Origin: Spirochaetaceae bacterium
GTDB lineage: Bacteria > Spirochaetota > Spirochaetia > CADAEX01
Reading direction: 5' to 3'
Assembly: GCA_009780675.1 (NCBI GenBank)
Contig: WQZP01000002.1
Location: forward strand, 1-64,000
DNA length: 64,000 nucleotides
Position numbers and translations under genes: made by a program. Position 1 is the first letter of the stretch. Each line of letters opens with the position of its first letter. The notes beneath the pieces are model-generated. The model was not told where the DNA came from, searched no databases, and saw nothing but the letters and a program-made list of their open reading frames with translations. Below, piece by piece: positions 24,685-58,830 of this stretch.

Positions 24685-25517
24685 GCAGCACAATTTTTAG
24701 AACAGGATTAACATATAATGTTGCTGATGCTCAAAAAGAAAAAAGCTTTACTGCAAAAAGAAAGTTTATTACTCTTGCCATATCTTTGATTTGTGTTACG
24801 CTTTTTGTGACGCAAATAATTTTTCAGGCTTTTATTGCGCCCCAGCTTGCAATTACAAAAATCGAAATACATTGCTCAAGCGCTTTCCCGCTTAGTAATG
24901 ATGAAATCCTTAAGTTAGCTGGATTAGAAGGAAGTCTTTATTATTTTTCAGTAAATACAGCGCAAATAAAAAGCAGGCTCCTGCAGCATCCATTAATAAG
25001 AACAGCAGAAGTAAAAAGAGTATTCCCATCTTCACTTTATATCAGGGTTGCGGAAAGAATCCCGCTGGGTATGGCGCTTGTAAACTCTGGGGGAAGGACA
25101 ATCCCTGTTGTTTTTGATGAAGAAGGTGTTATTTTTGAAATAGGAAGATCTGTTTCAAACTATAGGATACCTGTAATTTCAGGTTTAAAATTCGCAGAGT
25201 TAAGTCTTGGATTGAGATTGCCAAGTGAACTTCATTCTTATCTTTCAGAATTAAAAAAATTAAGAGAAACAACTCCAGCGCTTTTTGAGCAGATTTCAGA
25301 AATAAAATTTATAAACAGAAATAATTCAAATCATGAAGTGTTATTGTATCCTTTAAATACCAAGGTAAGAGTAAGAACAGCAAACACTATTAATGAGAAT
25401 CTTATAAAACAGATATTTGTTGTACTTGATATAATAGAGCAAAATGGATTAGAGTCGGAAATGAGTGAGCTTGATTTTCGTGCAGGACAGGTAGTTTTTA
25501 GAGTTAAGGGGGGGTAG
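24681..25517 (+). CDS. ftsQ: Division protein FtsQ/DivIB
   Basis: A 278-residue bitopic protein with a cytoplasmic tail, one membrane helix (about 30-52) and a periplasmic POTRA domain. The POTRA runs from ITKIEIHCSS to LYIRVAERIP, and the FtsQ beta domain follows (PVVFDEEGVIFEIG, about 145-275). It scaffolds FtsL and FtsB at the septum. Its last codons run through a seven-G tract (25508-25514) that also serves as the ribosome site of ftsA. Confidence 0.88.
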   Translation: MSSTIFRTGLTYNVADAQKEKSFTAKRKFITLAISLICVTLFVTQIIFQAFIAPQLAITKIEIHCSSAFPLSNDEILKLAGLEGSLYYFSVNTAQIKSRLLQHPLIRTAEVKRVFPSSLYIRVAERIPLGMALVNSGGRTIPVVFDEEGVIFEIGRSVSNYRIPVISGLKFAELSLGLRLPSELHSYLSELKKLRETTPALFEQISEIKFINRNNSNHEVLLYPLNTKVRVRTANTINENLIKQIFVVLDIIEQNGLESEMSELDFRAGQVVFRVKGG

Positions 25518-36127: not shown

Positions 36128-36586
36128 ATGGGTATATTTACAAGTATTGATACTGCAGCGTCAGGGCTTTCAGCTCAACGTCTTAGACTTGATGTTATTT
36201 CAAATAATATCGCGAATGTAAACACAACAAGGACTCAGGAAGGTGGCCCTTTCAGAAGAAGCAGGGTAATTTTCAGACCTATAGTATCACAGCCTTACTG
36301 GAGAAGCCCTTTTCTCCCTGAGCATCTTGATAATGGAATAGGAAGGGGTGTCAGGGTTACAAAAATAGAAAAGGATATGGATGCACCACCAAGGCTTGTA
36401 TATGATCCTACGCATCCGGATGCTATATTGACAGGTCCAAGAGCAGGATATGTTGAATTTCCAAATACAAATATAGTTAATGAAATGGTTGATATGATAT
36501 CTGCCACAAGATCATACGAAGCAAATATTGCGTTGCTCAATGGATCAAAAAGTATATTTCTAAAAGCTTTAGAAATAGGAAGATAG
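36128..36586 (+). CDS. flgC: Flagellar proximal rod protein FlgC
   Basis: A 152-residue rod protein paired with FlgB. The start GIFTSIDTAASGLSAQRLRL and DVISNNIANVNTTRT are the conserved N-terminal rod/hook motif. The C-terminal EMVDMISATRSYEANIALLN is the matching helix. It lies 9 nt after flgB and 11 nt before fliE. Length is slightly above that of enteric FlgC (134) owing to the central loop. Confidence 0.96.
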   Translation: MGIFTSIDTAASGLSAQRLRLDVISNNIANVNTTRTQEGGPFRRSRVIFRPIVSQPYWRSPFLPEHLDNGIGRGVRVTKIEKDMDAPPRLVYDPTHPDAILTGPRAGYVEFPNTNIVNEMVDMISATRSYEANIALLNGSKSIFLKALEIGR

Positions 36587-36597
36587 GGGGGGAATAA

Positions 36598-48731: not shown

Positions 48732-49763
48732 ATGACTGATATTTTATCACAAAACGAAATAGATCAGTTACTCACTGCTTTCACATCAGGAGATGTAGAG
48801 TCTGAAGAGGTCTCTCCTCAACTAAGTGATCAAAGAAAAATAAAAATATATGATTTTAAAAGACCTGATAAATTTTCAAAAGAGCAGATACGTACTGTCT
48901 CAATAATGCATGAAACTTTTGCGCGCCTTACTACAACATCGCTTTCAGCACAGCTTAGAAGCCTTATTCATGTTCATGTTGCTTCTGTAGACCAGCTTAC
49001 TTATGAGGAATTTATAAGATCAATTCCGAATCAAACAACAATTGCTGTAATAAATATGGATCCTTTAAAGGGCTCTGCAATCCTGGAAATTGACCCTTCT
49101 GTGACATTTTCAATCATAGAGCGTCTTTTCGGAGGCAAGGGAGAAGGGACAAAGATAACCAGAGAATTGTCAGATATAGAATCTTCTGTAATGGAAGGGG
49201 TAATCGTAAGAATTTTGGGAAATATGAGAGAAGCATGGAGCCAGGTTGTTGATTTAAGGCCGCGTCTTGGCCAAATCGAAACAAATCCGCAATTTGCTCA
49301 AATTGTACCTCCTACAGAAATGGTTGTCCTTGTTACGCTTGAAACAAAAGTAGGCGAGGTAGAAGGGATGATGAATTTTTGTATCCCTTACATAACTATT
49401 GAACCCATAATCGGAAAACTTTCAGCGCAATACTGGTACTCTTCGGTAAGAAGAGGCACAACTGCTGAAAACTTGAATATTTTACGGGAAAGACTTGCTT
49501 CTGTTGATGTTGATATTGTTGCGGAAATAGGAAGGATAAATATATCTGTTAGAGAAGCTTTGGCTCTTGCTGTGGGAGATGTAATAAGGCTTCAAAATGT
49601 AAGAATAAATGATGAAATGAAATTGAAGCTTGGTAATAAACCTAAATTTCTATGCAGACCAGGATTGCTGGGAAAGAAAGTAGCAGTGCAAATTACAAAG
49701 AAAATAGAAGATTTTAGTAAAGAAGAGTTTGAAGAATTAACTGCTGAAGGAGATGAACTATGA
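48732..49763 (+). CDS. fliM: Motor switch protein FliM
   Basis: A 343-residue switch protein. The N-terminal ILSQNEIDQLLTAF is the peptide that binds phosphorylated CheY. The middle CheC-like domain and the C-terminal SpoA domain (about 250-335) bind FliG and FliN. FliM is of usual length. Its stop codon overlaps the fliY start by 4 nt (ATGA). Confidence 0.97.
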   Translation: MTDILSQNEIDQLLTAFTSGDVESEEVSPQLSDQRKIKIYDFKRPDKFSKEQIRTVSIMHETFARLTTTSLSAQLRSLIHVHVASVDQLTYEEFIRSIPNQTTIAVINMDPLKGSAILEIDPSVTFSIIERLFGGKGEGTKITRELSDIESSVMEGVIVRILGNMREAWSQVVDLRPRLGQIETNPQFAQIVPPTEMVVLVTLETKVGEVEGMMNFCIPYITIEPIIGKLSAQYWYSSVRRGTTAENLNILRERLASVDVDIVAEIGRINISVREALALAVGDVIRLQNVRINDEMKLKLGNKPKFLCRPGLLGKKVAVQITKKIEDFSKEEFEELTAEGDEL

Positions 49764-50857
49764 GTGACGGCGCATTGTCACAAGATGAAATTGATGCTTT
49801 GATGAGTGGAAGTTCTGCAGGTTTTGATTTTGAATCTACTGCATCAAATGATGGTGGTCTATCAGAAAATGAAAAACAGTCATTTTTAGCCATTGTAAAT
49901 TCAATAATCGATACTCAATCAGCTACACTTTCGGGCATGATGGGGAAGACCGTTACTATATCGCCGCCATCTATAGAAATTCTCGCTGGCGGAAACATTG
50001 CTGCAGGATTTGATGGAAGTTTTGTAAGAATACAATCCTCATTTACAGATGGCGTTCCTGGTTATCACTCATATTTACTTACAGATGACATTTCAAAAGC
50101 AATGGCAGGCCTACTTTCTGGTCTTGATCAGGTTGAGCTTGATGAAGCTTCTCTTTCTGCTGTAAGTGAAGCTATAAATACTATAAGTGGTTCGGCAATG
50201 ACAGTGTTTGGAGACAGAATAGGAGAAACTATAATGTCCGAACCTGCAACTGCAGAAGTTTTTGATGCCAGTACTTCTGATATCCCTACAGGAGATTTAC
50301 TAAAACTTAATTATCCGATTACAATAGAAGATCATCCACCATCTGTTTTTAATGAGCTTTTTGATATTTCAGTTGTAAAGAAAATAATAACAGAAATCGC
50401 TGCTCCTGCAGCAGGAAAAAATCAAGCAGCTCAATCTCAGCAAGCGCCCAGGCAACAAAGTAGCCCACAACAATCTATGGGAAATATGGGAGCCCCTGCA
50501 GGTGCAAGTATGGGCGGAGGTATACAAAACCAGGGGTATGTAAATATCCAAAATGTTCAATATCCTTCTTTAGCCTCTTTAGGGTCAACTTCTGAGCAAG
50601 GCAATATAAGTCTTCTCATGGATGTTAACATGGAAATGACTGTAGAGCTTGGAAGAACAAAAAAGCCCATACGTGAGATACTTAGTATGGGAGAAGGGAC
50701 AATAATAGAGCTAGATAAACTAGCAGGTGAACCTGTTGATATATTGGTAAACCATAAACTTATAGCAAACGGCGAAGTTGTTGTAATAGATGAAAACTTT
50801 GGCGTACGTGTTACCAAGATCGTTTCAAATCCTACAGGGGTAAATGATGTGACATAA
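49760..50857 (+). CDS. fliY: Motor switch phosphatase-type protein FliY/FliN
   Basis: A 365-residue FliY: a FliM-like CheY-binding peptide (LSQDEIDALMSG), a CheC-like domain, a Gln/Pro-rich linker (about 215-260) and a C-terminal FliN SpoA domain (LLMDVNMEMTVELGRTKKPI). The CheC active-site pattern (D/S)-x3-E-x2-N is kept at S133, E137 and N140, with P162 close to the expected distance. It may therefore dephosphorylate CheY at the motor, which is known for Bacillus and Thermotoga FliY. Its sequence ends 24 nt before fliO. Confidence 0.94.
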   Translation: MSDGALSQDEIDALMSGSSAGFDFESTASNDGGLSENEKQSFLAIVNSIIDTQSATLSGMMGKTVTISPPSIEILAGGNIAAGFDGSFVRIQSSFTDGVPGYHSYLLTDDISKAMAGLLSGLDQVELDEASLSAVSEAINTISGSAMTVFGDRIGETIMSEPATAEVFDASTSDIPTGDLLKLNYPITIEDHPPSVFNELFDISVVKKIITEIAAPAAGKNQAAQSQQAPRQQSSPQQSMGNMGAPAGASMGGGIQNQGYVNIQNVQYPSLASLGSTSEQGNISLLMDVNMEMTVELGRTKKPIREILSMGEGTIIELDKLAGEPVDILVNHKLIANGEVVVIDENFGVRVTKIVSNPTGVNDVT

Positions 50858-50871
50858 AAAAGTCATAAACA

Positions 50872-50881
50872 GGGGGGGGGG
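50872..50881 (+). repeat. Ten-G tract abutting the fliO start codon
   Basis: Ten consecutive Gs (50872-50881) run directly into the ATG of fliO at 50882. The tract replaces a normal spaced ribosome site. Such homopolymer runs readily change length during replication, which could vary translation of fliO. Confidence 0.8.
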
Positions 50882-51487
50882 ATGACTTTAAAAGGTTTTA
50901 TATTTTTTCTTTTTCTCATTAGCATAATAGCGTCTCCATTAATATCTCAACAAGATAATGTCAACCAAATCCAAATACAGGATGAAAGTGAATTAATAAT
51001 ATTAGACGAAGAAACTCCGGCTTTTTTCCCGGAGGATGGTCTATTGGAAAGGGATCTTGGTTTTTTTACAGCCTGGGATGTTATAAGGATGATTTTGATC
51101 CTTGTTTTTGTAATAGCCTGTATTTATGGGCTTTTCTTTGTTCTTAAAAAAGCAGGAGTCCAAAAATTCAAAGAAGATAATTTAATAAATATTATATCAA
51201 GCAGATCCCTTGCAACAGGAAAAACAATGCACATTGTTGAGGTAGGCAACCATATAATGGTTATTGGAGCTGCTGACAATTCTATTTCCACCCTTTTCGA
51301 AGTAACAGATAAAGAGACTATTGATAATATCAGGCTTCAAAAAGCTGAAATAAAAAAACCAGCTGAAAACAGTTTTCAACAATATTTATATAATATGTTT
51401 TTTAGGGGAAAAGGAAATAAAAGTTTTAAGGAAGGCAGTGGTTTTGATTTTTTTAAAAAACAAAGGGATCGGATAGAAAAAATGTAA
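50882..51487 (+). CDS. fliO: Flagellar export assembly protein FliO/FliZ
   Basis: A 201-residue membrane protein with a signal-like N-terminus (1-20), a periplasmic acidic stretch, one membrane helix (about 66-90, DVIRMILILVFVIACIYGLF) and a cytoplasmic tail. FliO aids assembly of the FliPQR export gate. The cytoplasmic block IISSRSLATGKTMHIVEVGN is the family signature. The ATG directly follows ten Gs. Confidence 0.88.
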   Translation: MTLKGFIFFLFLISIIASPLISQQDNVNQIQIQDESELIILDEETPAFFPEDGLLERDLGFFTAWDVIRMILILVFVIACIYGLFFVLKKAGVQKFKEDNLINIISSRSLATGKTMHIVEVGNHIMVIGAADNSISTLFEVTDKETIDNIRLQKAEIKKPAENSFQQYLYNMFFRGKGNKSFKEGSGFDFFKKQRDRIEKM

Positions 51488-51561
51488 TAAAAACAGTTGT
51501 CTAACAAATTTTTCGAGCACTATTTTAATACAGAAAGCAAAATTTCTTTTGGGAGGGGGAA

Positions 51562-52356
51562 ATGAAAAAAAGGTATATTCTACTTTTTTCACTATTTTTA
51601 ATAATAACGGTTGATGGGTTTTCTCAACAAAATCAGCCGCTACAGCAGCACAGGGCTGCGGTTGGTGACCCGCTGACTATTCCATTTGTGGATATAACAG
51701 TCAGGCAGCCTGAAACCAACAGCGAAGTAGCGTTTTCCATACAGCTTCTCCTCCTTCTTTCGATTATTGCATTATCTCCCTCTATTATTCTATTGATGAC
51801 CTCCTTTTTAAGAATAGCAATTGTTTTTGATTTTATAAAACGAGCGTTATCTTTGCAGCAGGTTCCTCCTAACCAGGTTATTCTTGGAATAGCGTTATTT
51901 TTAACGATGTTTATAATGTGGCCCACATTTAATACAATTTATGAAAATTCATTCAGACCTTTTGCAGATGGAGACATTACAACACAAGAGATGTTCGTAG
52001 AAGCAGAAAGACCACTTAGAATATTTATGTATAATCAAATGAGAAATTCTCCGGAAAATATAAGGCTTTTTATGAGTTTACGCGGGCTTCCAAAGCCCGA
52101 TACCCTTGCAGATGTCCCTACTTATGTTCTTATTCCTGCATTTGTTTTAAACGAGCTAACCATAGCATTTAAAATAGGGATAATGCTTTTTATACCTTTT
52201 ATTATAATCGATATGGTTGTTGCATCAATACTTATGTCAATGGGTATGATAATGCTTCCTCCGGTAATGATATCCATGCCTTTTAAATTAATGTTATTTG
52301 TTCTTGTTGATGGGTGGAGTCTCATAACGAGTAATCTTGTCAGAAGTTTCGGGTAA
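51562..52356 (+). CDS. fliP: Flagellar export gate protein FliP
   Basis: A 264-residue integral membrane component of the type III export gate. A cleavable signal peptide (1-21, ending GFSQ) is typical of FliP. The conserved core PSIILLMTSFLRIAIVFDFI and the C-terminal LPPVMISMPFKLMLFVLVDGW are intact. GGGAGGGGG precedes the ATG after a 74-nt gap from fliO, where only a weak promoter-like TTGTCT/TATTTT pair can be seen. Confidence 0.97.
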   Translation: MKKRYILLFSLFLIITVDGFSQQNQPLQQHRAAVGDPLTIPFVDITVRQPETNSEVAFSIQLLLLLSIIALSPSIILLMTSFLRIAIVFDFIKRALSLQQVPPNQVILGIALFLTMFIMWPTFNTIYENSFRPFADGDITTQEMFVEAERPLRIFMYNQMRNSPENIRLFMSLRGLPKPDTLADVPTYVLIPAFVLNELTIAFKIGIMLFIPFIIIDMVVASILMSMGMIMLPPVMISMPFKLMLFVLVDGWSLITSNLVRSFG

Positions 52357-58811: not shown

Positions 58812-58830
58812 AAATGAGGAGGGGGGGGAT

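Follow-up and report, generated by a model that had tools for sequence, protein, structure and literature searches.

The ten-G run abutting the fliO start codon of a Spirochaetaceae bacterium is probably a homopolymeric Shine-Dalgarno element

The window analysed here, a stretch of 64,000 nucleotides (positions 1 to 64,000 of contig WQZP01000002.1) from a Spirochaetaceae bacterium, carries on its + strand the genes fliY/fliN, fliO and fliP in the order of a flagellar operon, as indicated by Pfam and profile matches. The fliY/fliN gene (49760..50857; matches to PF01052 and NF005995) ends with a TAA codon (50855-50857) that shares its frame with fliO, and no further in-frame ATG, GTG or TTG is found between this stop and the fliO ATG. 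The fliO gene (50882..51487, 201 aa) matches Pfam PF04347 with an E-value of 1.3e-11 and exceeds the gathering score. Its ATG (50882-50884) is abutted by ten G's at 50872-50881 (+), the surrounding sequence being CATAAACA-G10-ATGACTTTA. The run and the gene reported by the initial annotation are therefore both real. Downstream, fliP (51562..52356; PF00813 and TIGR01103) is preceded by its Shine-Dalgarno (SD) sequence GGGAGGGGG (51551..51559), an interrupted form of the same element that reads GGGAGGGGGaa here, G9 in the congeneric genome G001 and G8 followed by A in G003 and G002. An inverted repeat, AGAAA...TTTCT, is also visible by eye immediately 5' of this fliP SD (window 51530-51560) and occurs in the congeners too. 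Its nearest relatives with a name are spirochaetes assembled from metagenomes, whose sample names suggest an origin in termite guts.

The 16S genes of relatives end with ACCTCCTTTCT, which is complementary to the G run; a 16S gene was not found in the assembly itself, and the tail used for pairing was taken from these relatives. Computed pairing with ACCUCCUUUCU gives -8.9 kcal/mol for G6 and -9.2 kcal/mol for AGGAGG. Runs of G5 to G8 pair more weakly (-9.4 to -11.0 kcal/mol) than runs of G9 to G14, for which the best unrestricted pairing is nearly independent of length (-13.7 to -14.3 kcal/mol) because the registers slide. Every added G nevertheless enlarges the largest usable spacer. Hence, the tract does bear on ribosome binding, as initially proposed, being itself the sequence that pairs with the relatives' 16S tail. 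By these energies, the accompanying claim that any slip would alter both the strength and the distance of binding would hold for the spacer and for short runs, and hardly for strength between G9 and G14.

Homologous elements precede fliO in many relatives. We collected 90 spirochaete loci, 30 from the first searches and 60 selected manually out of 129 genomes with a match among 158 searched, and found an SD-anchored fliO start in 82 of them and none in the other eight. The SD was GGGAGGGG at 59 of these starts, G8 or longer at 12 and another variant at 11. In the register used by our script, the 8-base element, present at 71 loci, ends 2-5 bases 5' of the start in 61. Two congeneric genomes have G9 abutting the same fliO ATG, and the third congener has a contig edge there. 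Since poly-G forms of the fliO SD are present in families f1, f6, f15, f22, f32, f33 and f37 (with G7 in f12), this form probably arose repeatedly, as far as these comparisons tell. Genus g37 has two forms that are one A/G change apart, GGGAGGGGatGTG (G100, G117 and G052) and GGGGGGGGatGTG (G068 and G090). Among a further 20 loci, seven have a GGGAGGG(G) SD, three gave doubtful internal matches and ten have no such SD, among the latter the three loci of f19 and most of those of f24; the feature is thus widespread but not universal.

Placement of G runs in the window points in the same direction. The run before fliO is the longest G run of the window, where only 0.013-0.059 runs of at least ten G's are expected by chance on the + strand (Markov order 1-4). 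Four of the six runs of at least seven G's end 0-15 nt before a start, with starts called by a simple SD-scoring script, against 0.08 expected by area, and none of 20,000 random placements matched this; the count falls to two of six if ATG starts alone are considered. G-rich SDs are frequent in the window. They include a G7 (36586..36592, +) that serves as the SD of fliE (start 36598; PF02049), whose corresponding starts in two congeneric genomes have seven and eight G's, a G7 (25508..25514, +) before the TTG start (25522) of an ftsA-like gene, and a G8 (58821..58828, +) inside AGGAGGGGGGGG before a TTG start (58831) whose gene matches no Pfam family and lies 5' of a sigma-70-family gene.

Six more runs of nine or ten G's occur in the genome (2.4 Mb, 82 contigs), and none of them abuts a start codon within the stretches read. 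One, a G10 at 572-581 of locus L039 (contig C68), lies within a gene for a C5 cytosine-methyltransferase whose frame is broken into two ORFs, both matching PF00145; this may be a phase-variable methyltransferase or equally an assembly error. Another G10 (locus L035, contig C8:29812) separates a gene for a 333-aa lipoprotein-like protein from its opposite-strand neighbour. In a different genome, G017, GGGGGGGGATG occurs 20 times and the reversed pattern once, so that many starts of that genome may consist of an ATG abutted by G8.

Because of its homology to the relatives' SDs, its complementarity to their 16S tail and the placement of G runs before starts, we read the run as an SD in which the 8-base element and a 2-base spacer are all G, which is why it abuts the ATG. 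On sequence grounds, it is the SD itself and not a repeat lying near a ribosome-binding site. The counterpart at fliP reads exactly G8, then A, then ATG, in ten loci of nine families (L002, L005-L009, L011, L014, L016 and L019), besides one G9 and one G7. Furthermore, 41 genomes contain 21 occurrences of GGGGGGGGAATG, of which 11 are fliP by position.

The start codons behind these SDs are unusual. Among the 82 anchored fliO starts, 30 are CTG, 23 GTG, 12 TTG, one ATT (a weak call, at L221) and only 16 ATG. Non-ATG starts (66/82) are found in 28 of 30 families and CTG in 14. Three neighbouring genes from the first 30 loci served as controls and start mainly with ATG: 24 of 26 anchored starts for fliP (30 hits, loci found by tblastn), 21 of 23 for fliQ (28 hits) and 21 of 26 for fliY (29 hits), several of the fliY starts being clearly misplaced where the locus begins inside the gene, and counted as found. 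The non-ATG fraction at fliO differs sharply from that at fliP (2/26; Fisher p 2e-11), fliQ (2/23) and fliY (5/26). CTG had been permitted as a start; otherwise 23 of 60 loci drop out, and in 21 of these 23 an in-frame CTG comes after an SD of the form GGGAGGG(G), GGGAGG or G8. The stretch from the upstream stop to the CTG is devoid of ATG, GTG and TTG at 20 of the 30 loci with this start. Translations from the anchored starts resemble signal or membrane N-termini. Moreover, the pattern GGGAGGGG-N2-4-CTGAA occurs 102 times, summed over 158 genomes, versus 35 for a reversed-pattern control; 22 occurrences are at fliO by position, and the sequence was read for all but two. The seven GGGAGGG(G) loci of the further 20 start with CTG (two), TTG (two), GTG, ATG and ATC (one each, the ATC of L243 being a weak call). 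The 30 CTG starts stand behind a GGGRGG-type SD, and at four of these loci (L174, L181, L203 and L214) an in-frame ATG, GTG or TTG is absent from the upstream stop up to roughly codon 60 or to where the fetched sequence ends. The window's own genus uses ATG at fliO, and the window is thus outside the theme of rare starts.

Folding of 50850-50900 predicts a hairpin over the fliO start. Its 5' arm AAAGTCAT (50859..50866, +) begins 1 nt past the fliY stop and pairs with ATGACTTT (50882..50889, +), formed by the start codon and the first codons of fliO; the loop (50867..50881, +) consists of AAACA and the ten G's (z -2.48; 2 of 200 shuffles as good; stem test p 0.015). The predicted stem is weak in the window (-4.8 kcal/mol), and a longer stretch, 50835-50920, takes another fold (z -1.10). 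The 5' arm is conserved in both congeneric species despite a differing spacer before it.

We searched for such stems at the other loci, counting in the main test only those that overlap the start codon. At p<=0.05, a stem is present at 25 of 82 fliO starts (median p 0.136; many of these loci are mutually related), against 2/26 for fliP, 3/23 for fliQ and 2/25 for fliY (7/74 together; medians 0.67, 0.58 and 0.69). The idea of the stem came from inspection of the data, so that the 9 positives among the first 27 fliO loci are no blind test; the loci fetched after it was noted gave 16 of 55. By group, 12 of 31 have a median p<=0.1 (Fisher p 2.6e-5), while the stem is absent from many groups and 5 of 31 have a median p >0.7. 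Under a wider definition of the helix the signal is weaker, and 5 of 20 loci reach p<=0.05 at fliO; in the window this definition places 4 of 56 starts below 0.05, fliO ranking first. At several fliO loci the stem is not the best fold.

The arms themselves vary in sequence, being for instance GATCACA/TGTGATT in f22, AGCCAAT/ATTGGCT in f33 and ACTTCAT/ATGAAGT in f8. When 5' parts were swapped between groups, pairing worsened (mean -0.87 for real and 1.15 for exchanged parts; 0 of 500 exchanges as good). No such drop was seen for fliQ and fliY; fliP gave a smaller one (7 of 500 as good), and since fliP also drops, local composition may contribute to the effect. With GC-matched exchange, 27 of 75 loci have at most 5% of foreign arms pairing as well, and the mean fraction is 0.298. 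Pairing with the start codon and compensating sequence in relatives are therefore found as a trend.

These observations can be assembled into a mechanism. The 30S subunit would dock on a very strong SD exposed in the hairpin loop, and opening of the stem that holds the start codon would then limit initiation. A ribosome terminating fliY one base 5' of the stem could help to open it, and most relatives would limit the same step by starting at GTG, TTG or CTG, in some cases combined with a stem. Beyond the genus of the window, coupling to the fliY stop is doubtful: stop and stem are separated by 1 nt here, 0 in G003 and perhaps 13 in G001, and by 0-91 nt among loci at p<=0.05, so that such coupling would be lineage-specific at most. 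We thus propose, with a probability of about 0.8, that the ten-G run is the SD of fliO, a homopolymeric version of a GGGRGGGG element kept at fliO and fliP, and that it is presented in the loop of a predicted hairpin whose stem would limit initiation. The identity and conservation of the SD, the bias in start codons and the excess of start-trapping stems all come from sequence comparison, from which we infer an effect on the amount of FliO, the coupling to fliY and a purpose for the arrangement.

The initial annotation had instead suggested phase variation of motility. Frameshift switching can be discarded, the tract ending before the ATG and no alternative in-frame ATG, GTG or TTG following the fliY stop. 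In a subtler version, frequent slippage of a contingency locus would change SD strength or spacing and so yield graded FliO and varied motility in a population. G10 is a long homopolymer of a length known to slip, and in the available extract of PMC7864442, 13 of 17 (76%) poly-G tracts of eight or more G's vary in length in T. pallidum; tp0617, with a tract at position -1, is among the targets there and is not one of the four invariant ones. The fliO tract measures 10, 9 and 9 among congeneric species, shorter runs offer smaller spacers, and the broken methyltransferase frame coincides with another G10 of the genome, with the caveat of assembly error given above. However, the tract ends 5' of the ATG and its slippage would leave the reading frame intact, the duplex energy is almost constant from G9 to G14, and the homologous fliP tract is held at exactly G8 across nine families. 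Furthermore, G002 and G003 have equal lengths (G8/G8 and G9/G9) in two tracts compared, with identities of 99.6% and 99.7%, this comparison at >99% identity comprising these two tracts, with the fliO tract outside it at the G002 contig edge. Other tract pairs gave 7/7 in four cases at 80-95% identity and 7/8 in one at 90%. Phase variation is thus unsupported here, and we consider even its graded form quite improbable. A role in transcription is more remote still: poly-G length could act within a promoter, as in the tpr genes of T. pallidum (PMC7864442, same extract), a precedent from a spirochaete, but the run abuts an ATG within an operon, and a scan of 50600-51000 (+ strand) for sigma-70-like sites gave none. 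We rejected a promoter role on this basis and regard it as extremely unlikely.

Two other explanations accept the run as an SD. Ordinary drift of SD sequences, with no regulation and with incidental start codons and stems, would agree with the many G-rich SDs of the window and with the ATG used here; it would leave the non-ATG bias and the excess of stems unexplained, as both occur at fliO and are absent at the three neighbouring genes tested. We hold it to be rather unlikely. The SD loop could also be a site for a CsrA-type repressor, which binds GGA motifs (PMC4894983, in the part available) and would act on a GGA in the hairpin loop, linking FliO translation to a flagellar checkpoint. At fliO, 80 of 82 starts have a GGA near the SD, an A comes next in each of the 12 cases of G8 or longer, and the SD sits in the predicted loop. 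Retention of GGA is nevertheless weak evidence, since any AGGA-type SD contains it, and a scan of the window with one motif found no CsrA-like motif; we give this site a low probability.

We therefore retain the reading of the run as an SD under a start-trapping stem, and a broader extension of it can be put forward tentatively, at somewhat less than even odds. In much of the class Spirochaetia, a super-SD of eight bases would precede a fliO start that is throttled by its codon (CTG, TTG or GTG), by a stem hiding it or by both, with fliP fixed at G8-A-ATG. Such throttling would adjust the FliO:FliP ratio or couple fliO to the switch protein encoded upstream; the genus of the window would represent a variant that combines ATG with a stem and an SD made up of G's. 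The importance given to FliO by the initial annotation is borne out, as deletion of fliO makes Salmonella non-motile, a defect bypassed by moderate overproduction of FliP (PMC5542435, available section). In the accessible text of PMC12403147, FliO is detected less than expected in Spirochaetota, and short FliO entries are partly likely artefacts, often with wrong start codons. In a limited literature collection, our search found nothing on a poly-G tract as SD or on non-AUG flagellar start codons in spirochetes, no title on the fliO start codon or SD, and none on a CUG start. A testable, conserved and unusual translation start at the gene of an export-gate chaperone replaces a story of phase variation. 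If this is true, CTG would be the natural fliO start in many spirochaetes, annotated FliO N-termini would be wrong, and poly-G at a start codon would be no proof of a switch by itself.

In genes with rare starts, such as infC, a poor start codon limits initiation although the SD is strong; here, the fliO of the window has ATG and the rare starts are found in its relatives. Salmonella fliO, in a different phylum, is reportedly translated from putative tandem starts, to go by the title of a 1998 report by Schoenhals, and would also be a case of an unusual fliO translation start. Among poly-G tracts, those of T. pallidum (tprL, tp0126 and others) are alike in belonging to a spirochaete, in having 7-11 G's and in lying, for some, at or near annotated starts; as described in the extract of PMC7864442, the tracts studied are promoter elements of variable length, whereas the fliO run is an SD within an operon, is conserved as GGGRGGGG and is known from assemblies alone. 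Homopolymers at export-gate or flagellar genes are also found in Helicobacter pylori fliP and Campylobacter flgR and flhA, but these are located inside the genes and act as frameshift switches (PMC3930126, in part), unlike the fliO run, which precedes the start codon. Finally, the poly-G of the M. tuberculosis espR 5' UTR is likewise non-coding and proposed to alter translation; according to the available portion of PMC11898584, it lies 144 bp upstream and acts on folding, whereas the fliO run would be the SD itself.
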